Part shown: positions 146 to 40,759 of the stretch, one piece after another
How positions within the stretch are numbered: position 1 is the stretch's first letter
How the letters are laid out: each line of letters opens with the position of its first letter
Made by a program: the position numbers and the translations under genes
Virus record (IMG/VR): IMGVR_UViG_3300015611_000015
Span: 1-40,759 of that record
Source of the DNA: a virus
DNA length: 40,759 nt
Reading direction: 5' to 3' (one strand)
The notes under the pieces: generated by a model
Told to the model about the DNA's origin: nothing
Databases searched by the model: none
Seen by the model: only the letters and a program-made list of their open reading frames with translations

Positions 146-1363
146 TTAGAGGGTTTTCATGAGTTCACTGAACTTTTGGGAAGCCTCTTTTTTCATTGCT
201 TTTGTGGTATGCATGTAGACTTGCTTTGTTATCTCATCGTCTTTGTGTCCCAACCTCTCCATGATCTCTGGGAGACTTACCCCTGCCTCGGCAAGTAATG
301 ATGTGTGAGTATGTCTCAGTGAGTGAGGTGTCAGATCCTCATTGAGCTTCGCTAGTTTCAAGAGCCGATACATTCTTCTTTCAATGGTGGGTGTGATTTC
401 TGGATAGCCATGATATCTTTCTTCCCTTGCGAAGATGAAACCATTTTCGTGATATGTCGCCCTGTATTTCATGCGGATAGCATTCTGCCGTATCTTATAT
501 TTACTCATTTCTTCGATTACGAGTTTATCGATTATGATTTTTCGCTTAGACGCTACCGTCTTGGGTGGCGTCAGTTTGTACTTCCTTGCGTTGCCTGTCG
601 GATTATAGTAAGTTTTTATGATGTTTACAGTACCTTCTTCAAAGTCTATATCCTTCCACTTGAGGGCACACATTTCTCCGACTCTCATACCAGAGTACGC
701 CAGGAGGAGAAAGGCGGGGTAATCGCTTCCGAGTCCATCCTCTTTGGCTATTTTCAGGAAGAGCGATAATTCCTCTTTCTCAAGGTACTTGACTATTTCT
801 TCTTCTTCCTCTAATTGCTCGATTGTTTTAATTGTGCTAGGAATGGTTACGTACTGAGTTGGATCGTTCTTTACAACTCCATACTCGATCGCTCGTTTGA
901 AAATCATTCTACCGGTCGCGTTCGCTCCGATGACAGCCGCATTTGAAAGGCCACGGTCCTTAATTGCATTGAGCGCGCCCTGGTATAGTTTACGCGTGAC
1001 GTTCTTTAGTTTAATTTTCGCCAAATTAAGACTAAGCCTTTTAATTTCGAATTTCCTCATCCTAATTGTGCTTTCTTTAACCCTGCCGGAGTTTCCATAA
1101 TTAACGAGCCATTCTTTGGCAAAATCCTCAAAGGTTATATCTGACTCTTGAATAAAGGTCCCTTGATCGAGTTCATGCGTCACGATAGCGGCGGCCAGGG
1201 TAACATCTTTTTTTGTCTTAAACCCGCCCCTTTTTTGCTGCTTACGCTTACCAGTTTTAGGGTCAATACCGATATCAAGGATATAAGACCACGTAGCTCC
1301 GCATTTACACTTTTTGGTTTTATCAGGACACTTACAATTTGGTTTAAAAAAATGTCCCTCCAT
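146..1363 (-). CDS. int: Tyrosine-type site-specific integrase
   Basis: Phage integrase of the tyrosine recombinase family, about 405 residues. It catalyses integration and excision at attP/attB. The N-terminus has a cysteine-containing, arm-binding-like segment (CKCPDK, KCKCG). A SAM-like core-binding domain covers roughly residues 75-170, and the C-terminal catalytic domain shows R227 (SGMRVGE), H347-x-x-R350 (HSLRH), H373 (LGHKDD) and the nucleophile Y383 (VYMH). I start at the ATG at 1363 because AGAGGGGG lies just upstream; a TTG at 1396 would extend it by 11 residues without a better ribosome site. It points away from the early genes and ends near the circular junction, next to paired repeats that could be its arm sites. 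Confidence 0.95.
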   Translation of the reverse strand: MEGHFFKPNCKCPDKTKKCKCGATWSYILDIGIDPKTGKRKQQKRGGFKTKKDVTLAAAIVTHELDQGTFIQESDITFEDFAKEWLVNYGNSGRVKESTIRMRKFEIKRLSLNLAKIKLKNVTRKLYQGALNAIKDRGLSNAAVIGANATGRMIFKRAIEYGVVKNDPTQYVTIPSTIKTIEQLEEEEEIVKYLEKEELSLFLKIAKEDGLGSDYPAFLLLAYSGMRVGEMCALKWKDIDFEEGTVNIIKTYYNPTGNARKYKLTPPKTVASKRKIIIDKLVIEEMSKYKIRQNAIRMKYRATYHENGFIFAREERYHGYPEITPTIERRMYRLLKLAKLNEDLTPHSLRHTHTSLLAEAGVSLPEIMERLGHKDDEITKQVYMHTTKAMKKEASQKFSELMKTL

Positions 1364-1426
1364 GATAAGTAACCCCCTCTTGTTATCTTCTCCCAAAATT
1401 TACGTATGTTACATTACCGTCCTTTA

Positions 1427-14867: not shown

Positions 14868-15647
14868 ATGTCAAAGTTACTCATAAATCAACCACCACTG
14901 CAGGTGTTACCTGATCTCGCCGTAAAGATTGGACTTAACGAAGCAATCATCTTACAACAATTGCACTATTGGGTAGAGCGTTCCGTTAATATAATTGAGG
15001 ATAAGAAGTGGGTCTACAACGACTACGCCGCATGGCGAGAACAGTTTCCATTTTGGAGTGAAAAAACAATCCAGCGCTCTTTTTTAGCGCTGGAAAAGCT
15101 AGGCATTGTTACATCGAAACAGTTTGAGAAGTACACGTCGAATTATACAAAGCGTAATAGGCGCAAATGGTACACGATTGACTATGCGAGATTTGCAGAA
15201 TTTGAGAAGGAAGAACCACTGGAAACCAAGCCGGCCAGCGAACAGGACAATATGGGCCATACGAAAGATCCCGAAGAGGACAAAGTGTCCCGTTCAGGTG
15301 AAGAGGACAAAGTGTCCCGTTCAACGTATACAGAGAATACTATCACAGAGAATACATCTGACTGGACTGAAAGCGACTGGCCTTTAATAAAAGTATTAGG
15401 AGACGAAGGGTACGACCCGGACAGTGCCTCGGCGGTCAACCTTGGGCGGATAGCAAAGGCTGAAAACTCGAACCCAGACCAACTACGCGAAGCTCTTTTA
15501 GAAATGGATAAGCAAGAATCTTATATCAAAAATCAGTTTGGATGGATTAGAGCTAAGCTTAGGGAACTAAAAGTTCGGGACGAACTATACTTTCAGAGGG
15601 TGCCGCAAAAAGTTAAAAAAACCTACCAAATGTACTCAGCCAAATAA
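14868..15647 (+). CDS. Second replication-initiator-like (wHTH) protein
   Basis: 259-residue protein starting MSKLLINQPPLQVLPDLAV with IGLNEAIILQQLHYW and KTIQRSFLALEKLGIV, the winged-helix N-terminal domain found in Firmicutes phage and plasmid replication proteins. The linker (about 125-160) holds two copies of the octapeptide EEDKVSRS; the C-terminal part is helical. It is separate from the replisome organiser at 8.8 kb, so the phage appears to carry two such proteins. A hairpin covers its ribosome site. Confidence 0.75.
   Translation: MSKLLINQPPLQVLPDLAVKIGLNEAIILQQLHYWVERSVNIIEDKKWVYNDYAAWREQFPFWSEKTIQRSFLALEKLGIVTSKQFEKYTSNYTKRNRRKWYTIDYARFAEFEKEEPLETKPASEQDNMGHTKDPEEDKVSRSGEEDKVSRSTYTENTITENTSDWTESDWPLIKVLGDEGYDPDSASAVNLGRIAKAENSNPDQLREALLEMDKQESYIKNQFGWIRAKLRELKVRDELYFQRVPQKVKKTYQMYSAK
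15273..15323 (+). repeat. Two 24-bp repeats with palindromic core (candidate iterons)
   Basis: Identical 24-bp units occupy 15273-15296 and 15300-15323. Each contains GGACAAAGTGTCC, a palindrome with 5-bp arms. They lie in the linker of the second replication-like protein. GTGTCCCG, part of the unit, also occurs at 14774-14781 upstream of the gene. A replication origin or autoregulatory site is possible. Confidence 0.5.
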
Positions 15648-31746: not shown

Positions 31747-31974
31747 ATGGAGAGTAATTTAGGCACAAGTATGCAATGGCTTCAATTAGCAATAACTATT
31801 ATAGGATTAATTACGCTTTTTATTCAGATTGGTAATAAACAGGGAAAACAAGAAGAAAAGAATAAGAATTTTGAAGAGAATCAAAAAAATCAACGCGAAG
31901 AGATCGATGTAATTAAGAATGATATCAGTACGATTAAGACGGACATTGCATTTATCAGAGGTAAATTGCTGTAA
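31747..31974 (+). CDS. Holin-associated membrane protein (XhlA/BhlA-like)
   Basis: 75-residue protein with one hydrophobic segment near the N-terminus (MQWLQLAITIIGLITLFIQI) followed by a charged coiled coil (QEEKNKNFEENQKNQREEID). This layout fits the XhlA/BhlA-like proteins encoded before phage amidases. It probably helps lyse the host or anchors lysis proteins. Confidence 0.75.
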   Translation: MESNLGTSMQWLQLAITIIGLITLFIQIGNKQGKQEEKNKNFEENQKNQREEIDVIKNDISTIKTDIAFIRGKLL

Positions 31975-32035
31975 TTTACAAAGGGATGTAGATGATCTAA
32001 GATCAAAGATAAATTCTTTTAGGAGGTATTCAGCA

Positions 32036-32836
32036 ATGACATATCCAATATCGGAACAGCTCCTATCCTTCAATCGGTCTAAGAAATCGCTTATCCCTCA
32101 GGGGTTTGTCGTGCATAGCACAGCTACGCCAAACGCAACGGCACAAAATGAGCATGATTACTTCAATGGTGGGGATCGTCAAGCTAGTGTGCATTATTTC
32201 GTAGACTGGGGATATATCATCCGGACAATTCCAGAGAATGAACAATGCTGGGGATGCGGTCAAACTGGCAACAGTAAATTCCTGCAGGTCGAAATGTGTG
32301 AACCAAGTGACGCTTCTAAGTTTCAAGAAGTGTGGAATAGAACCGTTTGGCTAGTAGCCAGTGCTTGCGTAAAACGTGGATGGTCTACTGGTCCTAATGT
32401 CTATTCTCATCGTGGCATATCTGGAATATACAAGGAAACAAACCACACTGACCCGATACAATTCCTCGCTAATCACGGCAAAACATGGGATCAACTTCTT
32501 TCCGCTATAGATGCTGAGATAGCACGTTTAAAGACTCCTGTTGTAGTTGTTCCACCTGTCGTAGTTGTGCCCGTCACGCCCCCTCCTGTGCCCTCTGTGA
32601 TGTATCGGATCATCCTAGACAACAAGCAGATCATGGCGATAGCTGATCAAGAGAAGGCCATTGCACAAGTTAAGAATTCCGTAGATGCAGGACCATATAT
32701 CAAGGGAATGGTTCAACGTAACGATGGTCAAACAGTTTTTGAGTATTATAAGCCAGTGGTGGTTGTACCTGTCGTGGATAACGACGCTCTAGCCGTGGAC
32801 CTTCTCAATCAGGCAATAGAATTAATTAACAAATAG
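32036..32836 (+). CDS. N-acetylmuramoyl-L-alanine amidase (endolysin)
   Basis: 266-residue endolysin of the Amidase_2 type. Zinc ligands are H27 (FVVHST), H137 and D139 (NHTDP), with SVHYFV at 51-56. A proline/valine linker (PVVVVPPVV, PVTPPPVP, about 168-190) leads to a C-terminal domain of about 75 residues, probably for cell-wall binding. It cleaves the stem-peptide amide bond. The ATG at 32036 follows AGGAGG; an upstream in-frame ATG at 31919 lies inside the preceding gene. Confidence 0.92.
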   Translation: MTYPISEQLLSFNRSKKSLIPQGFVVHSTATPNATAQNEHDYFNGGDRQASVHYFVDWGYIIRTIPENEQCWGCGQTGNSKFLQVEMCEPSDASKFQEVWNRTVWLVASACVKRGWSTGPNVYSHRGISGIYKETNHTDPIQFLANHGKTWDQLLSAIDAEIARLKTPVVVVPPVVVVPVTPPPVPSVMYRIILDNKQIMAIADQEKAIAQVKNSVDAGPYIKGMVQRNDGQTVFEYYKPVVVVPVVDNDALAVDLLNQAIELINK

Positions 32837-32851
32837 AAGGAGGAAAATATT

Positions 32852-33070
32852 ATGGATGAAACAAAAGTATGGTGGCAATCATTAACTTTATGGGGTGCAA
32901 TCATAACTGTTCTTGCGGCCGTAGCTGGGATATTTGGATTCACTATTGATATTCAGACGCAAAAGGAGATCGTAGAATATATTATGGTTGGTGGTAGTGC
33001 CGTGGGTGGTTTAATGGCGGCCTATGGCCGGATCAGAGCATCTAAGATAATCGTTAAGACAATTAAATAA
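32852..33070 (+). CDS. Holin
   Basis: 72-residue protein with two membrane segments (LTLWGAIITVLAAVAGIFGF and IMVGGSAVGGLMAAYG) and a basic C-terminus, as in small Firmicutes phage holins. It would form pores letting the amidase reach the wall. AGAAGGAGG precedes the ATG. The strong terminator after it closes the late region. Confidence 0.8.
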   Translation: MDETKVWWQSLTLWGAIITVLAAVAGIFGFTIDIQTQKEIVEYIMVGGSAVGGLMAAYGRIRASKIIVKTIK

Positions 33071-33119: not shown

Positions 33120-33368
33120 TATCGGATGTATTTGGCCATTCGTTTATTATTGAGTTTGACAAGGCATATCTATATCTAACGCTTCCACTTGAGTTTACCA
33201 CTAGATATAGTATAACGCTTACTTTGAGCTATATATTTGACGTTTTTGCCTAGATTTCTATGCTTTTATAGAAAATTTATGCTATAATTGCCTGTAAACA
33301 GGTAATATTCATTGGTGTATTGATTATACTATACCATATCAAGAACCTTTGAAAGGGGTAATAATAAT
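33120..33368 (+). promoter_or_regulatory. AT-rich control region of the acetyltransferase pair
   Basis: The 249-base gap has several control signals. TTGAGT (33189-33194) and TATAAC (33211-33216) at 16-bp spacing form one promoter candidate. AACGCTT followed by an ACTT(T)GAG-like sequence occurs at 33178 and 33214, a 36-bp direct repeat. An inverted repeat TTTCTAT/ATAGAAA lies at 33255-33261 and 33268-33274. TGCTATAAT at 33280-33288 is an extended -10 element followed by the palindrome CCTGTAAACAGG (33291-33302) at the likely transcription start, a probable autoregulatory operator. Confidence 0.6.
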
Positions 33369-33539
33369 ATGGCAACAAATAGCATCTATAAAGAAATGCG
33401 GGTTAAGAATACAGGATATTGCCGTAATTTTGTTGCTGCCCTTGAAAACGCAGAAAAGAAATCCAGCAAGGATGTTGTTCTTTCAAAGCGAATTCAAGAA
33501 TTAAGAGGCGATATCCTAAAAAAGATGTTTGGAGATTGA
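33369..33539 (+). CDS. Small protein preceding the acetyltransferase (possible antitoxin)
   Basis: 56-residue basic protein (YKEMRVKNTGYCRNFVAALEN, LSKRIQELRGDILKKMFGD). It has no obvious DNA-binding motif. It begins after AAAGGGG and ends three bases before the next gene, so the two are coupled. The small-gene-first order and the palindromic site at the promoter suggest an antitoxin, but the pairing is inference. Confidence 0.6.
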   Translation: MATNSIYKEMRVKNTGYCRNFVAALENAEKKSSKDVVLSKRIQELRGDILKKMFGD

Positions 33540-33541
33540 AA

Positions 33542-34222
33542 ATGTCTGGATACAGCCTAATTAATATAAGTGACATGCTCCAAGAACTTGGAGAGGATAA
33601 ATTAAAAAATATCCTCTCCAATTATATGTGTCCGCATAATGAGGATTTAGAGTATTTCTTGCGTGATAAGGCTATAGAGTTTTCAAAGCAGGGAATAGCT
33701 GCAACCCATTTAGTTTTTACGTCATATAAGGACAAGCCTGTACTTATCGGCTATTTTTCGCTGGCCAATAAATTTATTTTTATACCAAAAAAGCTTTTAA
33801 GCCAAACATTGAAAAAGCGCGTCTCAAAATTTGGAACGCGGGAGGAAAATGGGTATAGTTTGGGCACTCCTTTAATCGCTCAATTAGGGAAAAACTACAC
33901 AAATGATTATAACACCCTAATTACCGGTGATGAGCTACTAGCCATGGCTATCAATAAAGTAAAACAAATTCAATCTGATCTTGGCGGCAGAATCGTTTAT
34001 TTAGAATGTGAAGATGTCCCGTACCTTATTGAATTCTATTCTTCAAACGGCTTTTTAAATTTTGGTAAACGTAATTTAGACCCCGATGAAAGAAATCGGT
34101 TAAAAGGTACATATCTAGTACAAATGTTAAAATATTTACGCATTGATCAAGGCCAAGGAGGAAAAATCAAAACTCTAATTAACATGGATGCTTATGAGAA
34201 AGTTCAGGAAATCAAGGTTTAG
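33542..34222 (+). CDS. GNAT-type acetyltransferase (possible toxin)
   Basis: 226-residue protein whose second half has GNAT features: PLIAQLGKNYTNDYN, ITGDELLAMAINKVKQIQ, GRIVYLECEDVPYLIEFYSSNGF and a terminal strand VQMLKYLR. The order VYLECE followed by LIEFY-x-x-NGF is the GNAT acetyl-CoA fold ending. The N-terminal half (MLQELGEDKLKNILSNYMCP) is family-specific. I know similar proteins from Firmicutes phages and mobile elements, always with a small upstream gene. Substrate unknown; tRNA- or peptide-acetylating toxins are one possibility. GGAG precedes ATG 33542. Confidence 0.72.
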   Translation: MSGYSLINISDMLQELGEDKLKNILSNYMCPHNEDLEYFLRDKAIEFSKQGIAATHLVFTSYKDKPVLIGYFSLANKFIFIPKKLLSQTLKKRVSKFGTREENGYSLGTPLIAQLGKNYTNDYNTLITGDELLAMAINKVKQIQSDLGGRIVYLECEDVPYLIEFYSSNGFLNFGKRNLDPDERNRLKGTYLVQMLKYLRIDQGQGGKIKTLINMDAYEKVQEIKV

Positions 34223-34601: not shown

Positions 34602-34761
34602 AACTCCACCGGAGTTGCCAGACGGCAATTCGAATCCTTGGGTAGATGGCATTAACTCTATAGTAAAGGGTCTGCCATGGAGCCGATTGACATTACATAT
34701 GGTTCCAGTTATTGTAATTATTCTACTGCTAGGGAATTGGCTAATGCTGTTTCGTTTCTAA
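34591..34761 (+). CDS. Small single-span membrane protein
   Basis: 56-residue protein with an acidic/proline-rich N-terminus (LPETPPELPDG) and one C-terminal membrane helix (HMVPVIVIILLLGNWLMLF). Its ATG follows TAGGAGGGA and overlaps the upstream membrane gene, so the two are probably made together. Function unknown. Confidence 0.6.
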   Translation: MLPETPPELPDGNSNPWVDGINSIVKGLPWSRLTLHMVPVIVIILLLGNWLMLFRF

Positions 34762-34788
34762 TCTTAAACTAGAGGAGGAAAATTGATT

Positions 34789-36015
34789 ATGAAAAATCTA
34801 ATGAACAAGTGGAATCAATTGAGCCTCGTGAAACAAATAATTATAGGTTTGATCATTGGAATTATCTTGGCTGTAACGATTCCAGACGTAGCAAAACCGA
34901 TCGCAATTTTTGGTACTTTATTTGTAGGTGCTTTGAAAGCGATTGCGCCTATATTGGTCTTCTTCTTGGTCATGTCGGCCATCTCTCAACACAAGAGTGG
35001 TCATCAAACCAATATGAAATCCATTATCGTTCTTTATCTTTTAGGAACCTTCTTGGCTGGACTCGTGGCGGTTGTTGCAAGCTTTATTTTCCCGGTAACC
35101 TTAACCCTTGCAGCGGGCGCTGAGAATGTGACGCCTCCTGGAGGTGTGGTAGAGGTTCTTAAAGCATTACTGATGAATGTTGTTGATAACCCAGTCAAAG
35201 CACTTTTTAATGCTAACTATATCGGTATATTGTCCTGGGCATTACTTCTTGGCTTTGCTTTAAAAAATGCGGCTGATTCTACAAAATTAATGATTTCTAA
35301 TTTTTCCGATGCAGTCACCTCGATGGTCAGATGGGTCATAAAATTAGCGCCATTAGGCATCATGGGTCTCGTATTTGATGCTATTGCTACCAATGGAATC
35401 GGTGCTTTACTCAGCTATGGACAATTACTAGCCCTTCTGCTTGGTTGCATGGTCTTTGTAGCTCTAGTTGTCAATCCAATCATTGTGTACGTAAATATTC
35501 GTAAAAACCCATACCCACTAGTGTTTAAGTGCTTAAAGGAAAGTGGCATTACAGCTTTCTTTACACGTAGCTCTGCTGCAAACATTCCTGTAAATATGAC
35601 CTTGTGTGAAAATCTAGGGTTAGATAAGGATACGTATTCGGTATCCATTCCATTAGGCGCCACCATTAATATGGCGGGTGCAGCTGTTACCATTTCTGTG
35701 ATGACCCTTGCAGCGGTTCACACGCTTGGTATTCAAGTGGATATAGCGACGGCATTAATCCTCAGTGTATTGTCGGCTGTATGCGCTTGTGGTGCTTCAG
35801 GCGTAGCTGGTGGTTCGCTATTACTGATTCCTCTAGCGTGTAGCTTATTCGGGATCCCCAATGAGATTGCTATGCAGGTCGTTGGTGTAGGCTTTATCGT
35901 AGGTGTTTTACAAGACTCTTGCGAAACGGCACTGAACTCATCCACAGACGTACTTTTCACAGCAACCGCTGAATTCGCTAAGTTGCTTAAAGAAGGAAAA
36001 GAAATCATTATCTAA
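34789..36015 (+). CDS. sstT: Serine/threonine:Na+ symporter (SstT-like)
   Basis: 408-residue dicarboxylate/amino acid:cation symporter family transporter of the SstT type, importing serine or threonine with sodium. Key features are several membrane helices beginning [16 protein letters not shown], the serine-rich re-entrant loop [11 protein letters not shown], the helix motif [11 protein letters not shown] and the second hairpin [14 protein letters not shown]. Full family length, so probably intact. ATG 34789 follows GAGGAGG. It is an uncommon phage cargo and is followed by a very strong terminator. Confidence 0.9.
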
Positions 36016-36050
36016 ATAGGAACTCTATAAGGTGTTATTTTTCGCTATTA

Positions 36051-36099
36051 AAGACCCGTATCGCAGTTTATGATTGAAACTGCGATACGGGTCTTCTCT
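36051..36099 (+). terminator. Terminator after sstT
   Basis: A perfect 19-bp stem (36051-36069 with 36077-36095), loop ATGATTG, followed by a pyrimidine-rich tail CTCTC. It is the longest hairpin I found in the window and is likely to work on both strands, since the other arm is preceded by AATAGCG and AAAAAT. Confidence 0.85.
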
Positions 36100-36185
36100 C
36101 TAAGACCACAAAAAAGTTCTGATTTTTTCCCAAGAAGGAAATTATCAGAAACCTTAATATATGAGCGTTTTACTAAAGTCTAAAA

Positions 36186-36237
36186 TGGTGCCTCAGGACG
36201 GAATCGAACCGCCGACACGAGGATTTTCAGTCCTTTA
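36186..36237 (-). pseudogene. 3' fragment of tRNA-Phe (GAA), possible att site
   Basis: On the minus strand the sequence from the anticodon stem through loop CTGAAAATC (anticodon GAA), the variable loop, the T-arm with GGTTCGATTCC and the acceptor strand CTGAGGCACCA matches a bacterial tRNA-Phe 3' half. The matching acceptor 5' strand and D-arm are absent from the neighbourhood, and identity ends in the anticodon stem. That is the usual extent of overlap between a tRNA gene and a phage attP. It is either attP, a remnant of an earlier integration, or a captured host fragment. Confidence 0.75.
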
Positions 36238-36439
36238 AGACCATCAGACTCCCTTTTCCCAACAAAGAGAATTATAAGCGTAGCGATCTAATATGTCAAT
36301 GAATTTGCATTAGTTTGAGGTGATATGGAGATAAGTAAAAACACAATATTTTAATAAAGTGTATTTTAAATGTCTTCATAGGGTGTACATTTCGTTGGAA
36401 TAGTGGTATTTTAAAGGAAATAACTGAACATTTAGGCTT
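36238..36439. other. Gene-free AT-rich stretch
   Basis: No credible ORF, promoter or repeat could be identified here. It separates the tRNA fragment from the hairpin-rich segment. Confidence 0.6.
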
Positions 36440-36600
36440 AACATGTGGCTAGTGTCCCTATAGGAAGGACATTTGACTTCAGATGCTGGGGAAGCTTCAA
36501 CAAAGTTAAGACAGAATTTCGGCTAGTGATAAAAACTGTTTAAGAGGTCTGCCGATATGGCAGACCTCAGTAGCAAGCGGAAGACGCTAACAGGTGGCTT
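36440..36600 (+). other. Hairpin-rich non-coding segment
   Basis: About 160 bases without a credible ORF contain several inverted repeats: TGTCC/GGACA near 36453-36471, GAAGCTTC at 36491, and a 10-bp stem GAGGTCTGCC/GGCAGACCTC at 36544-36568 with a five-base loop GATAT. The octamer GGCTAGTG occurs twice. It could be a structured leader or small RNA. I do not recognise a known riboswitch or RNA family. It lies directly before the ORF at 36601. Confidence 0.4.
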
Positions 36601-36810
36601 GTGAAGTATCTCCAAAATGACTGTGTGGGTTTATACACAGTTAACGTCCAAAATGGTATATTAGGAGCATTTCCGACACCGCAGTACCTTCAGATTTACT
36701 TCAATGTCGCAATAGGCGTTTTAGTTATTAACGCAGGGCTGGATGTCCTAGATTTCTTCTTTCCAGTAAATAAACAAGGCTCAAGGCGAAAAAAGAAAAA
36801 GTCTACTTAA
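36601..36810 (+). CDS. Hypothetical protein with hydrophobic segment
   Basis: 69-residue ORF starting with GTG behind AGGTGG. A hydrophobic stretch (about residues 29-55, IYFNVAIGVLVINAGLDVLDFF) is followed by a strongly basic end (GSRRKKKKST). It may be a small membrane protein. No family recognised; it could also be a fragment of a larger gene. Confidence 0.45.
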   Translation: MKYLQNDCVGLYTVNVQNGILGAFPTPQYLQIYFNVAIGVLVINAGLDVLDFFFPVNKQGSRRKKKKST

Positions 36811-37397: not shown

Positions 37398-37499
37398 TTA
37401 AATTGCGGCCTTATGATTGATTGTAACTTTCAGCCAAGTACCATCAGTTTTTTGATGAACATACAAGGTGTAGGTTCCATCTGCCATTAACACAAGCAT
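37398..37499 (-). CDS. Small ORF coupled to the UroD gene
   Basis: 33-residue ORF (begins MLVLMADGTYTLYVHQKTDG, ends VTINHKAAI) whose ATG is one base after the UroD stop codon and is preceded by AAAGGAAAA. Two beta strands are likely. It may be a real accessory peptide or the head of a truncated protein. No family recognised. Confidence 0.4.
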   Translation of the reverse strand: MLVLMADGTYTLYVHQKTDGTWLKVTINHKAAI

Positions 37500-37500
37500 T

Positions 37501-38481
37501 TCAATATTTTCCTTTACTCATTTTGTCGATTGCTTCACTGGCGCATTCATATACACCGGGGAAGGAACTGAAATTCAAACCTTGAGTTAAATTAGGAATA
37601 AAGTATAATTTCCCGCAATTTTTGCAGGCCCTCTCTACTTCTTTGGCCATGATTTCAGGAGTCCATGCCGGGATATCGACGACGCCGCTGTCGATATCCC
37701 CCATAAAGCTGATTTGGCCGCCGTATTTCTTGATCAGTTCGGGAGTGTTGTTAGTAGTCATAACACCCTGCCAAATATCTACTCCCATTTCAATCATGTA
37801 GGGAACCAGGTTAGCCGCATAGGAATCGCTGTGATGCACGATCAACTCGACACCGTTGGCTTTGTAGAATCCATAGATTTTCTTATAAGCTGGTAAATAG
37901 AACTCTTCAAACATTGCCGGTGAAATGAAGGAAGATTTTTGGCTGCCCCAGTCGTCATGATGGAAAAGTGCATCCGGATGCAGACGATCGATCAGAATTC
38001 TCGCATAGCTTATCTCAGCTTCCGTAAGATAATCAATAAGCTCATGCATTGCTTCAGGTTCTTCACAGAGAGCCATTAATGCATCTTCCATACTCATAAG
38101 GTGATGACACATTTCAAAGACACCAGGTAGAGCTATCGCAGTTACAAATTGTTCAGTGCGATTGATTGAATTAGCATGCGCGATAGCTGCAGCCCATGCC
38201 TCATCAGAATTATCAATTACAGGCGCTTTCACGTATTTTTTCCAATCTGTAATATCCTTTAATACTTTGTGTTCTTCGTCATGTACAGGGAACTGACCAA
38301 GCTGACCTTCTGGCCATCTGAAGGTAATTCCCCAATTATTTTTGAACTCCTTACCGGGGTCGCACATAAGCTTGACTGGAACTTCTAGTATTATGTCCAT
38401 AAATTCGTACTGATTTACAAATCGATCTGGATTACCACCTTTGATCGTTTCCATTAAATTTTGCCTCTTCGTTAACATCAT
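37501..38481 (-). CDS. UroD-family corrinoid methyltransferase (MtaA-like)
   Basis: 326-residue protein of the uroporphyrinogen decarboxylase fold in the branch of cobalamin methyltransferases (MtaA/CmuA-like). Visible elements are a QYEFMDI start, HHDDWGSQ (174-181), ELIVHHSDSYAANLVPYM (213-229), then MGDIDSG. Members transfer a methyl group between a methyl-corrinoid protein and a second acceptor, or act directly on a methyl donor. The classical zinc motif HxC is replaced here by HHSDS, so chemistry may differ. It follows the corrinoid protein gene by 55 bases, with AGGAGG before the ATG. Confidence 0.8.
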   Translation of the reverse strand: MMLTKRQNLMETIKGGNPDRFVNQYEFMDIILEVPVKLMCDPGKEFKNNWGITFRWPEGQLGQFPVHDEEHKVLKDITDWKKYVKAPVIDNSDEAWAAAIAHANSINRTEQFVTAIALPGVFEMCHHLMSMEDALMALCEEPEAMHELIDYLTEAEISYARILIDRLHPDALFHHDDWGSQKSSFISPAMFEEFYLPAYKKIYGFYKANGVELIVHHSDSYAANLVPYMIEMGVDIWQGVMTTNNTPELIKKYGGQISFMGDIDSGVVDIPAWTPEIMAKEVERACKNCGKLYFIPNLTQGLNFSSFPGVYECASEAIDKMSKGKY

Positions 38482-38536
38482 TTATGGCCTCCTTTTATTT
38501 AGTTCTAAGTTTTTAAGCACTAAACCAATCTGGCGA

Positions 38537-39169
38537 TTAAGCGCTTACCAATTCTTTAGCTTTTACTGCGGCACTCCCCGCATCAGGAGCAAAACCGTCT
38601 GCTCCGATTTCATCCGCCATCTCTTGGGATACAGGCGCACCACCGACAATGATCTTGAACCCTGTTAATCCGCTCGCTTTAAGCGCTTGAACGGTTTCCT
38701 TCATTGACGGCAAGGTTGTCGTAAGAAGCCCTGAGCATGCCACTATGGTTACATTTTCATGTTCTTTAATGGCCTTAATAAATTTTTCTGTAGAAATATC
38801 TACGCCAAGGTCTACCACTTTAAATCCAGCACTTTCGATCATCATGGCAACGAGATTTTTGCCGATGTCATGAAGATCGCCTTGAACTGTACCGATAATG
38901 CATGTGCCTAAATAAGAAGTACTGGTCTCTGTGAGAAGAGGTTTGAGTACATCAACGCCCTTGGACATAGCTTTAGCGGCCATCAGCATTTCAGGTACGA
39001 AAACCTCTCCTACAGAGAATTTGTCTCCTACGACACCCATAGATTCGACCATACCCTGGAGAATATCTCCCGCTGCGTTTCCTTCATCAAGTGCTTCCTG
39101 CACTAAACCCGGGACGAGTTTAGCTTTACCTGCCTCTACCATAGCTTTTACTTCTGCGATCTTTGTCAT
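38537..39169 (-). CDS. Corrinoid (B12-binding) methyltransfer protein
   Basis: About 210-residue two-domain corrinoid protein. The N-terminal helical cap (about 1-85, VQEALDEGNAAGDILQGMVE, EVFVPEMLMAAKAMSKG) is followed by the B12-binding Rossmann domain with D98-x-H100-x-x-G103 (GDLHDIGKN), where His is the lower cobalt ligand, then SGLLTTTLPSM and a GGAPV turn. It is the methyl carrier in MtaC/MtbC-type systems. No substrate-specific methyltransferase of the MtaB/MttB type is present. The ATG at 39169 is preceded by GGAGG. Confidence 0.9.
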   Translation of the reverse strand: MTKIAEVKAMVEAGKAKLVPGLVQEALDEGNAAGDILQGMVESMGVVGDKFSVGEVFVPEMLMAAKAMSKGVDVLKPLLTETSTSYLGTCIIGTVQGDLHDIGKNLVAMMIESAGFKVVDLGVDISTEKFIKAIKEHENVTIVACSGLLTTTLPSMKETVQALKASGLTGFKIIVGGAPVSQEMADEIGADGFAPDAGSAAVKAKELVSA

Positions 39170-39231
39170 TTTCAATTCCTCCTAGTGCTTATGTTTTTTA
39201 TTTTTTGATCAATTTTGTCTTCCCAATATCC

Positions 39232-39288
39232 TCAGATGATACCGAAGATACCTGCGACTAGAGAAATGATTCCACCTGCTTTTTTCAT
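39232..39288 (-). pseudogene. Truncated small membrane-type gene
   Basis: Behind AAGGAGAGA an ATG starts MKKAGGIISLVAGIFGII, which looks like the first membrane segment of a small conserved protein (compare MKKAGGIIALIAGIFG starts), but an in-frame TGA follows after 18 codons. Reading on would give GYWEDKIDQKIKNIS until the next stop at 39172-39174, just before the corrinoid gene. It is probably a broken gene, or an 18-residue peptide. Confidence 0.5.
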
Positions 39289-39309: not shown

Positions 39310-39870
39310 TTATTTAATACTTTCAACCTTTATAGTGTAACCTAACATTTCTCCAACATCAGTTATGGTTCCCGTTACGGTAAGTTTCTGCTTACTCGTA
39401 AATTTTGATACAGTAGCTTTTTGTTCCTGAGTAATGTTACACAAAATAGTAGTAAAGGAAAGATCGTCGTTCATGGGAGCAATCGAAAAATATTTCCCAT
39501 TGCTGTCGATGCTTGATAATTGACCAGTCACTTCAACGTATTTACCCTTATAAGCTTCACTGGCATTTAATGCGTTGCCCTTCAAGTCTTCAACAAGTTT
39601 ATCCGCTGTTACCACCACGGGGGCTGCTTTCGGCTGTTGCGTGGCGACGCTCGATGCAGCTGGCGCCGTAGTTATTGCTGGTGCTTGAGCAGGGCTAGAT
39701 TCCCCCCCACTACCCATAGCCGATCCGATACCACCAATAATAACGAGTGCGAGTATGCCAGTTATTATTTTGTGTCTGCTAAAAAAGTTCCTCTGATCAG
39801 TTCCACAATGGACACATTTCTTTACACCTTTACCGATCTCCTTACCACAAGATTTACAATTTGCTAACAT
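39310..39870 (-). CDS. Zinc-ribbon membrane protein with OB-fold domain
   Basis: 186-residue protein. The N-terminal zinc ribbon (ANCKSCGKEI, CVHCGTDQR) is cytoplasmic. One membrane helix follows (about 35-50, IITGILALVIIGGIGSAMG), then an alanine/proline linker. The extracellular C-terminal domain (about 85-186) is like tRNA_anti-like/OB-fold proteins: YKGKYVEVTGQLSSID, FTTILCNITQEQ, KLTVTGTITDVGEMLGY. It probably binds a small molecule or peptide at the surface. Typical of Firmicutes chromosomes rather than phages. Confidence 0.75.
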   Translation of the reverse strand: MLANCKSCGKEIGKGVKKCVHCGTDQRNFFSRHKIITGILALVIIGGIGSAMGSGGESSPAQAPAITTAPAASSVATQQPKAAPVVVTADKLVEDLKGNALNASEAYKGKYVEVTGQLSSIDSNGKYFSIAPMNDDLSFTTILCNITQEQKATVSKFTSKQKLTVTGTITDVGEMLGYTIKVESIK

Positions 39871-39956: not shown

Positions 39957-40409
39957 CTATTTCTTTTCCACAATAGAACACCATATTACAGGACCATCAC
40001 AGGCTGCTGGGGTTAGTTTGGTGTCAGACACATAGCCATATACCTTAACTGTATCTCCACTCTTTAAATCAACTATACTAGATGTATTGACTATGTAATA
40101 TATACCCCAGCCAGATCCTTCTTTTTGACTTAATAAGAAGCTTGGTATTCCACTATTGCTGACGGCTGAAACTTTGCCTTCTGCGAATACAGCTTTATGC
40201 TTAACTTGATCATAGTGCCCGTTAATTTCAACAAAGTCCGCCTTGACCGCATTTGTTCTTAGGTCGTCAATTGCCTTCTTGCCGTCTGCTTCTTGCTTTG
40301 CTACTTGATCTACTACGGGGGTTGTCGATTCAGGAGCATTAACTGTAGTTCCACATCCTAGTAACGAGACCATAAGGCCGATAGACAATAAATACAGTAT
40401 CTTTTTCAT
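39957..40409 (-). CDS. Lipoprotein with OB-like domain
   Basis: 150-residue predicted lipoprotein. The signal peptide ends in a lipobox LLGC (C19). The mature part has a charged helix (VAKQEADGKKAIDDLRTN) and beta strands (KHKAVFAEGKVSAVS, GDTVKVYGYVSDTKL) of OB-fold type similar to the upstream neighbour, so the two may be related surface proteins. GAGAGG precedes the ATG. Confidence 0.75.
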   Translation of the reverse strand: MKKILYLLSIGLMVSLLGCGTTVNAPESTTPVVDQVAKQEADGKKAIDDLRTNAVKADFVEINGHYDQVKHKAVFAEGKVSAVSNSGIPSFLLSQKEGSGWGIYYIVNTSSIVDLKSGDTVKVYGYVSDTKLTPAACDGPVIWCSIVEKK

Positions 40410-40660
40410 TCATTCAAGTCCTCTCATAATTTGCTAAAACAGTTATTCAGTTCTATGCACTATGGGGTTTTTCCTGCTATGAGATAATATTAATTATTCT
40501 AAGCATACCCGTTTGGGTAACATTTAGGTAACGTAATCAGAATAAAGGGGATGAAACAAGCTAAAGATGTTACAATGATAAAAAGGAGAAACCCTTACTG
40601 TACACTCCCTGTGATACATAAACTAAGATATTACAGCATAAATTTCTTAATAAGAGTTAC
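40410..40660. other. Non-coding region before the circular junction
   Basis: No convincing ORF. It contains the 11-bp-period GGTAAC pair, scattered GTTAC motifs on the other strand (40569-40573 and 40656-40660) and an imperfect inverted repeat around TGTACACTCCC-TGTGATACA (40599-40618). Because it continues across the circular junction to the integrase gene, it is a good candidate for the attP region. Confidence 0.5.
40516..40533 (+). repeat. Paired GGTAAC repeats, candidate integrase arm sites
   Basis: GGTAAC at 40516-40521 and GGTAACG at 40527-40533 repeat with the same 11-bp period as the pair at 83-100 (equivalent to 40743-40760 on the circle). The two pairs are 227 bp apart and flank a non-coding stretch beside the integrase, as arm sites flank a phage att core. 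Confidence 0.45.
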
Positions 40661-40759
40661 TTATGATATAACAGAATATGAAATTGATAAACGTCTAGTA
40701 CCAAGGGCTGAGAGGCTTAATGGTTACCGTAAAATGCCTAAAAGTAACGAAAAGGTAAC
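40661..40759. repeat. Terminal direct repeat, copy 2 (circular overlap)
   Basis: Exact copy of bases 1-99, ending at the window edge. It indicates a circular molecule of 40,660 bp. A length of 99 is a common k-mer size in assemblers, which supports an assembly overlap rather than a biological repeat. Confidence 0.95.

Follow-up and report, generated by a model that had tools for sequence, protein, structure and literature searches.

The DNA analysed here, referred to as the window, is the whole of IMG/VR virus record IMGVR_UViG_3300015611_000015, 40,759 bases in length. Its first and last 99 bases are identical (1-99 = 40661-40759), so the contig is circular, with a circle of 40,660 bp. Searches against Pfam and PHROGs find the genes of a temperate phage: integrase, antirepressor, terminase, portal, capsid, tape measure, endolysin and a holin-like protein. 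The tyrosine integrase gene, int (146-1396, minus strand; Pfam Phage_integrase, PHROG 1), is the only integrase gene found, as the first-pass annotation had stated. The lysis genes, encoding an amidase endolysin and the holin-like protein (31919-33070, plus strand; Pfam, PHROGs), form the phage-side border of a region of cargo that extends towards attP. From the holin gene to the attP arm this region measures 7.4 kb in this phage, while in one relative (L002) the cargo is absent and the amidase (Amidase_3) gene lies about 1.3 kb from attP. Between the lysis genes and the cargo we also note an acetyltransferase-like gene (PHROG 1758) following a short open reading frame (33340-34222), perhaps a toxin-antitoxin-like pair.

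Within the cargo region lies the 3' half of a tRNA-Phe(GAA) gene (36186-36234, minus strand), comprising the anticodon stem-loop, variable loop, T arm, the 3' strand of the acceptor stem and CCA. By sequence comparison its 49 nt are the same as those of full tRNA-Phe genes of the presumed host order, without a substitution, and they are letter-perfect in 56 of the loci compared, some of which overlap at one place. The presumed order is that of Paradesulfitobacterium ferrireducens (NCBI family Peptococcaceae), a presumption that rests on the captured DNA itself; 73 of its genomes were searched. When 36096-36620 was used as a BLAST query, 66 of these 73 genomes gave matches, mostly at the tRNA-Phe half, a result far beyond chance. 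An extent from the anticodon stem to CCA, which had been read from the letters alone, is borne out by this comparison. The half that had been placed at 36186-36237 is real and its 5' part is missing, but the end given for it is a few nucleotides overlong, as identity to the host genes stops at 36234-36236. Judged as an attP-like core, 49-50 nt are identical to the 3' end of the host tRNA-Phe. A complete tRNA or tmRNA at 36.2 kb is ruled out by both ARAGORN and the Rfam covariance scores. The 5' half of tRNA-Phe is absent, with ARAGORN calling only a defective 'tRNA-???' at 36186-36269, and the Rfam tRNA model scores 18.1 bits at the half against a gathering score of 29 (E = 1.5), so that there is no match at gathering level. 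The half does not form the complete cloverleaf of a functional tRNA gene.

Both flanks of the half match DNA of host tRNA loci. On its 5' side, and running into it, are the promoter and leader of a host tRNA-Gly(CCC) gene (36225-36299, minus strand; 79-93% identity to 13 host genomes and to G020). The promoter (TTGACA-17-TATAAT, 36299-36271) matches the consensus at 12 of 12 positions, promoter and leader together account for 36299-36235, and the leader and tRNA homologies overlap at about 36225-36234. By BLAST the promoter and leader are matched in 13 of the 73 genomes, each time near a tRNA-Phe and upstream of a tRNA-Gly(CCC); the further match in G020 came from a separate search. ARAGORN identified the tRNA-Gly in 12 of the 13, the start of the gene in G028 being seen by pattern only. 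The tRNA-Gly follows tRNA-Phe on the same strand in 11 of the 13 and is inverted in the other two (G033, G016). In an alignment of ten host leaders, the leader of the window matches as far as positions 59-77, with the tRNA block beginning at position 66, and six of the ten (G024, G021, G032, G022, G019, G041) show the two homologies touching or overlapping. The joint therefore lies in AGG(A)CTGAAA, in the anticodon stem and loop. On the 3' side is the terminator of a host tRNA-Lys/Glu/Phe operon (36104-36177, minus strand), with 76-82% identity to sequence downstream of tRNA-Phe in 4 of the 73 genomes (G002, G031, G033, G041). The host order is purA-(Lys-Glu)-Phe-(0.05-1.5 kb)-Gly, and the interval between Phe and Gly varies between hosts in both length and content. 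An exact 24-mer spanning the chimeric junction of leader and tRNA had no occurrence in viral contigs, and a leader pattern allowing up to 3 mismatches had none in the 73 genomes.

The remainder of the cargo is likewise of host type. A serine/threonine transporter gene, sstT, with its Shine-Dalgarno region and terminator, occupies 34746-36101 on the plus strand (coding sequence 34783-36015; NCBIfam SstT, 660 bits against a cut-off of 308). It reaches 92% amino acid and 89% nucleotide identity to chromosomal copies, the similarity including the Shine-Dalgarno region and, in G018, the terminator too. On the other side of the half is the upstream region of a host kbl-type gene, of the glycine C-acetyltransferase family (36323-36475, plus strand), with 74% identity to sequence upstream of kbl in G030 and 68% to sequence upstream of sstT in G042. 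Next to it lies the 3' end, together with the terminator, of an epimerase-family gene located ahead of sstT in hosts (36473-36569, plus strand; 82-85% to G018 and G030). The epimerase-family gene falls under every NCBIfam cut-off, and we give it no enzyme name. In G018 and G030 the order is kbl-type gene, epimerase-family gene, then sstT; in the window the kbl upstream region is fused directly to the epimerase 3' end, and both gene bodies are missing. The kbl/sstT upstream region contains two similar TGTC..CATA..GGACATTTG-like motifs (window 36323-36475; G030:C51:920-1081; G042:C158:24249-24383). These are possibly an operator or an RNA leader of a threonine/serine regulon, and an Rfam search of the motif region gave no convincing match.

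Further along, on the minus strand, a host-type corrinoid protein gene (38537-39175) and a URO-D/MtaA-type methyltransferase gene (37501-38481) occupy 37498-39238; across 1.7 kb this stretch shares 78-89% nucleotide identity with ten host loci. In hosts the cluster has a third gene, for a methyl-THF:corrinoid methyltransferase, which is cut off in the phage. Thus sstT, the kbl and epimerase remnants and the corrinoid pair are all orthologous to host chromosomal DNA, as expected of captured cargo. Compared with hosts, sstT has a dN/dS of 0.08-0.14, the corrinoid gene 0.08-0.16 and the methyltransferase gene 0.04-0.11. As these values set the window against hosts, selection acting in the phage cannot be told apart in them from selection acting in the host. 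No corrinoid protein was found in viral contigs; in the phage collection, relatives of sstT and of the corrinoid gene are distant, or sit in records that in our judgement look bacterial. The intact sstT and corrinoid/methyltransferase pair may benefit the lysogen, and the tRNA scrap probably does nothing.

Measured on the circle, the half lies 4.57 kb from int, in agreement with the first-pass estimate of about 4.6 kb. The same annotation counted six minus-strand coding features in between. We count four sizeable minus-strand open reading frames (37501-38481, 38537-39175, 39310-39870 and 39957-40409) and two small ones on the plus strand. The annotation had also offered, as one of two readings, that the phage carries cargo between its attP, at the half, and int. 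This is not supported, given that an attP of the layout typical of this integrase family adjoins int itself, and that relatives integrate beside int, at the 3' ends of groEL or cupin genes. The layout consists of two direct GTTACY pairs, the two sites of a pair being separated by 11 bp; counted from the int stop, one pair falls at about +16 to +62 and the other at about +235 to +300. In the window, the int-proximal arm sites are at 83/94 (attP part 1-105, no strand assigned) and the distal arm sites at 40516/40527, which with the core side make up 40516-40660 (no strand assigned; 92% identity to L002 over 40490-40648). They are the only GTTACY pairs in the circle, and flank a core beside int, across the contig joint; the contig ends, with their 99-bp repeat, fall within the attP region. 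Single-base shuffles of the circle gave one GTTACY pair in 3 of 20 trials and two pairs in none of the 20. Both pairs occur at the same distances in five of seven relatives checked (L002, L003, L005, L006, L007), and the int-proximal pair alone in the other two (L034, which is integrated at groEL, and L134). For about 400 bp on either side of the tRNA half there is no GTTACY arm site.

Relatives of the integrase do not support the expectation that this family targets tRNA genes. In seven loci (L009, L019, L020, L029, L034, L137, L138) the DNA downstream of int enters a chaperonin gene at its 3' end; the gene is recognised as Cpn60 by Pfam in L019 and L034 and was read by eye in the other five. 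In L139 int sits at the 3' end of a cupin gene. The integrases at groEL or cupin 3' ends share 47% identity or more with that of the window. A tRNA scan around 35 int loci found a tRNA-Met 10 kb away in L032 and a tmRNA gene beside int in L036, a distant relative (30% identity) about 160 bp from the tmRNA gene. The close int family appears from these loci to integrate at the 3' ends of protein genes beside int; the wider family, given L036, is not limited to protein genes. That the border of an integrated copy might lie elsewhere than at the half, an outcome which the first-pass annotation had allowed for, is seen for the relatives, whose borders are beside int, but for this phage neither an integrated copy, and with it borders at a tRNA, nor an attB was found. 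BLAST of the attP core against 20 genomes returned E values of 0.004-0.7 in unrelated places, at chance level, and the core had no match in groEL. Integration of this phage probably uses the ordinary attP beside int.

Our preferred reading, which we hold to be probable, is that the half is a captured piece of host chromosome within the cargo region between the lysis genes and attP, acquired by circle or tandem-duplication capture, and is not the attachment site of this phage, which would integrate through the attP beside int. It is the order of the pieces that leads us to such a capture. Hosts have tRNA-Phe, terminator, interval, promoter and tRNA-Gly, in that order; the window has the promoter and leader directly before the Phe half and terminator. 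Similarly, hosts have the kbl upstream region, kbl, the epimerase gene and sstT, and the window has sstT first, with the kbl region and epimerase end after it. As judged from gene order, then, the tRNA set and the kbl/sstT set are both circularly permuted around the same place with respect to the host. One event would account for both permutations if in the donor kbl-epimerase-sstT lay in the interval between tRNA-Phe and tRNA-Gly. We infer that this interval was captured across a single circle or tandem-duplication junction, that the junction would have formed at AGG(A)CTGAAA, the short homology common to the leader and the tRNA-Phe anticodon arm, and that later deletions would have removed kbl and most of the epimerase gene. 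Several separate captures, rather than one event, are possible. Against the donor arrangement, the host genomes yielded no case of kbl-sstT lying between tRNA-Phe and tRNA-Gly, none of 12 stretches of about 20 kb around sstT contains a tRNA gene, and in G026, G022 and G013, each a single contig, a long distance separates sstT from tRNA-Phe. Also weighing against capture of host DNA is that the half has the extent of an anticodon-type attachment site. The lack of matches to the chimeric junction in viral contigs and to the leader pattern in the 73 genomes, the negative attB search and the tmRNA neighbour of L036 count on the same side.

A second orphan half bears on how such a breakpoint arises. 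Among 20 further tRNA-Phe matches in host genomes, 19 are complete genes and one is an orphan 3' half, on G046:C58 (L218/L223; 32193-32249). It has decayed to 86% identity, supplies the stop codon of purA, and lies upstream of tRNA-Gly(CCC), the tRNA-Lys, tRNA-Glu and 5' half having gone; G046 keeps another complete tRNA-Phe. In 14 further loci purA lies beside a tRNA-Phe match; with L076 (Neobacillus, outside the order) set aside and the duplicate pair L190/L101 counted once, these represent 12 distinct places. It follows that the deletion in G046 extended from the end of purA as far as the anticodon arm. This half thus comes from the same tRNA gene as that of the phage, and has likewise lost its 5' part at a breakpoint within about 1-2 nt of the phage breakpoint, but it is chromosomal, was made by deletion between purA and tRNA-Phe, and has decayed. 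The near-coincidence could be due to a short homology present by chance or to the action of a recombinase. Two breaks so close together could point to a site-specific recombinase, which would count against the reading as captured host DNA. This closeness is the feature that leaves a site-specific origin possible, and it points to the tRNA-Phe anticodon arm as a testable recombination-prone spot.

A site-specific origin would take the form of an attP, or a displaced attachment site, of some other tRNA-Phe-integrating element of the anticodon-loop type, which recombined with the phage and whose integrase was lost. We regard this as unlikely. The span from anticodon stem to CCA is the usual extent of anticodon-centred sites, in the excerpted account of PMC4383910; the breakpoint is in the anticodon arm, which the leader homology overlaps, and the G046 orphan half breaks about 1-2 nt from it. 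However, no second integrase was found among the proteins searched between 33 and 40.7 kb, and both flanks are DNA of the host tRNA locus rather than element DNA. In particular, the 5' side, where a displaced site should show element DNA, is the host tRNA-Gly promoter and leader. Nor do the other host tRNA-Phe matches reveal such an element, 19 of the 20 being full genes and the orphan half abutting purA with no integrase. The alternative offered in the first-pass annotation, a scar of another element captured in the accessory region, is therefore supported as to capture, but not as to a source in another element, since both flanks derive from the host tRNA locus and there is no sign of another element with an integrase.

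Still less probable is that the joins are artefacts of assembly or amplification, in which host pieces became linked with the phage, or with one another, in vitro or in silico. Such a suspicion is fed by the nature of the record, which is of metagenome type and has at its ends a 99-bp repeat of the kind that k-mer assemblers typically leave, by the presence of several joins within 2 kb, and by the absence of the same junction from any relative. The homologies at the joins, however, are far under 99 bp, so that such joins would be hard to obtain by misjoining of k-mers. The pieces stop close to natural borders (Shine-Dalgarno regions, terminators), and sstT and the methyltransferase pair are intact, with about 11% nucleotide difference from their closest host copies.

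We give equally little credence to a functional chimeric RNA. On this view the phage would transcribe, from the promoter of tRNA-Gly and through its leader, an RNA ending in the tRNA-Phe anticodon arm, T arm and CCA, which would serve as a decoy or regulator. The promoter, with its 12 of 12 consensus positions, is on the right strand, the half-tRNA has no substitution, and the stem of the terminator region folds better than shuffled sequences (z -2.55). Yet folding of the half plus leader shows no advantage over shuffled sequences (z 0.15, or z -1.2 when more 3' sequence is included), the chimera was not found in other viral contigs, and the host tRNA-Gly genes already own this promoter, so that no selection in the phage is needed to explain it. 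A fold of 139 nt hints at pairing between leader and downstream sequence, and is equalled by 24 of 200 shuffles. Were such an RNA real, it would be a decoy for host enzymes that recognise tRNA-Phe, anticodon nucleases for example, or a regulator, and the fusion would be an adaptation rather than scrap.

Least credible of all is that the half is the working attP of this phage, with int acting from 4.6 kb away: its extent and perfect identity to tRNA-Phe, the status of int as sole integrase found, and the position of the distant relative L036 next to a tmRNA gene would suit it, but the family attP layout is beside int and not near 36.2 kb, where arm sites are absent, and in close relatives the integration site adjoins int, at the 3' end of groEL or of a cupin gene, so that we reject the half as the attP of int and consider it very unlikely on these sequence grounds to be an attP of this phage. 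Half a tRNA in a phage genome is often read as attP, and this case shows how that rule can mislead.

Cargo genes carried by phages are known as morons. The window resembles such genes, and the products of specialised transduction, in that host genes, together with the terminators belonging to them, lie between the lysis module and attP, and differs in that several host loci are combined, with a junction of the circle or duplication type and with internal deletions. Here, a phage has been caught with several host loci, among them intact genes for amino-acid transport and corrinoid methyl transfer, while the joints can still be read. As far as the excerpted text of PMC4383910 goes, fragments of tRNA genes centred on the anticodon are the standard mark of tRNA islands, and the phage half shares with tRNA-integrating prophages and islands (Islander) a 3' fragment that runs from the anticodon arm to CCA. 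Compared with the islands of that account, the phage half has no adjacent integrase, its flanks are the promoter of another host tRNA and the terminator of a host operon, and a separate attP lies beside int. Phages carrying whole tRNAs needed for lysogeny have been described too (PMC10865867, in excerpt), and here the likeness is of a temperate phage with tRNA sequence of a host isotype. Set against that description, our phage has half a gene, unable to replace the host tRNA, and close relatives of its integrase target sites other than tRNA genes. The mark of a tRNA island is thus present in the phage and the integrase logic is absent, and the finding is one of host-DNA capture with an instructive joint, otherwise ordinary. 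Searches of the open-access literature listed no earlier report of this arrangement. Elsewhere in the window, a 24-nt direct repeat is present as two exact copies 27 nt apart (15273-15323), within a coding frame.
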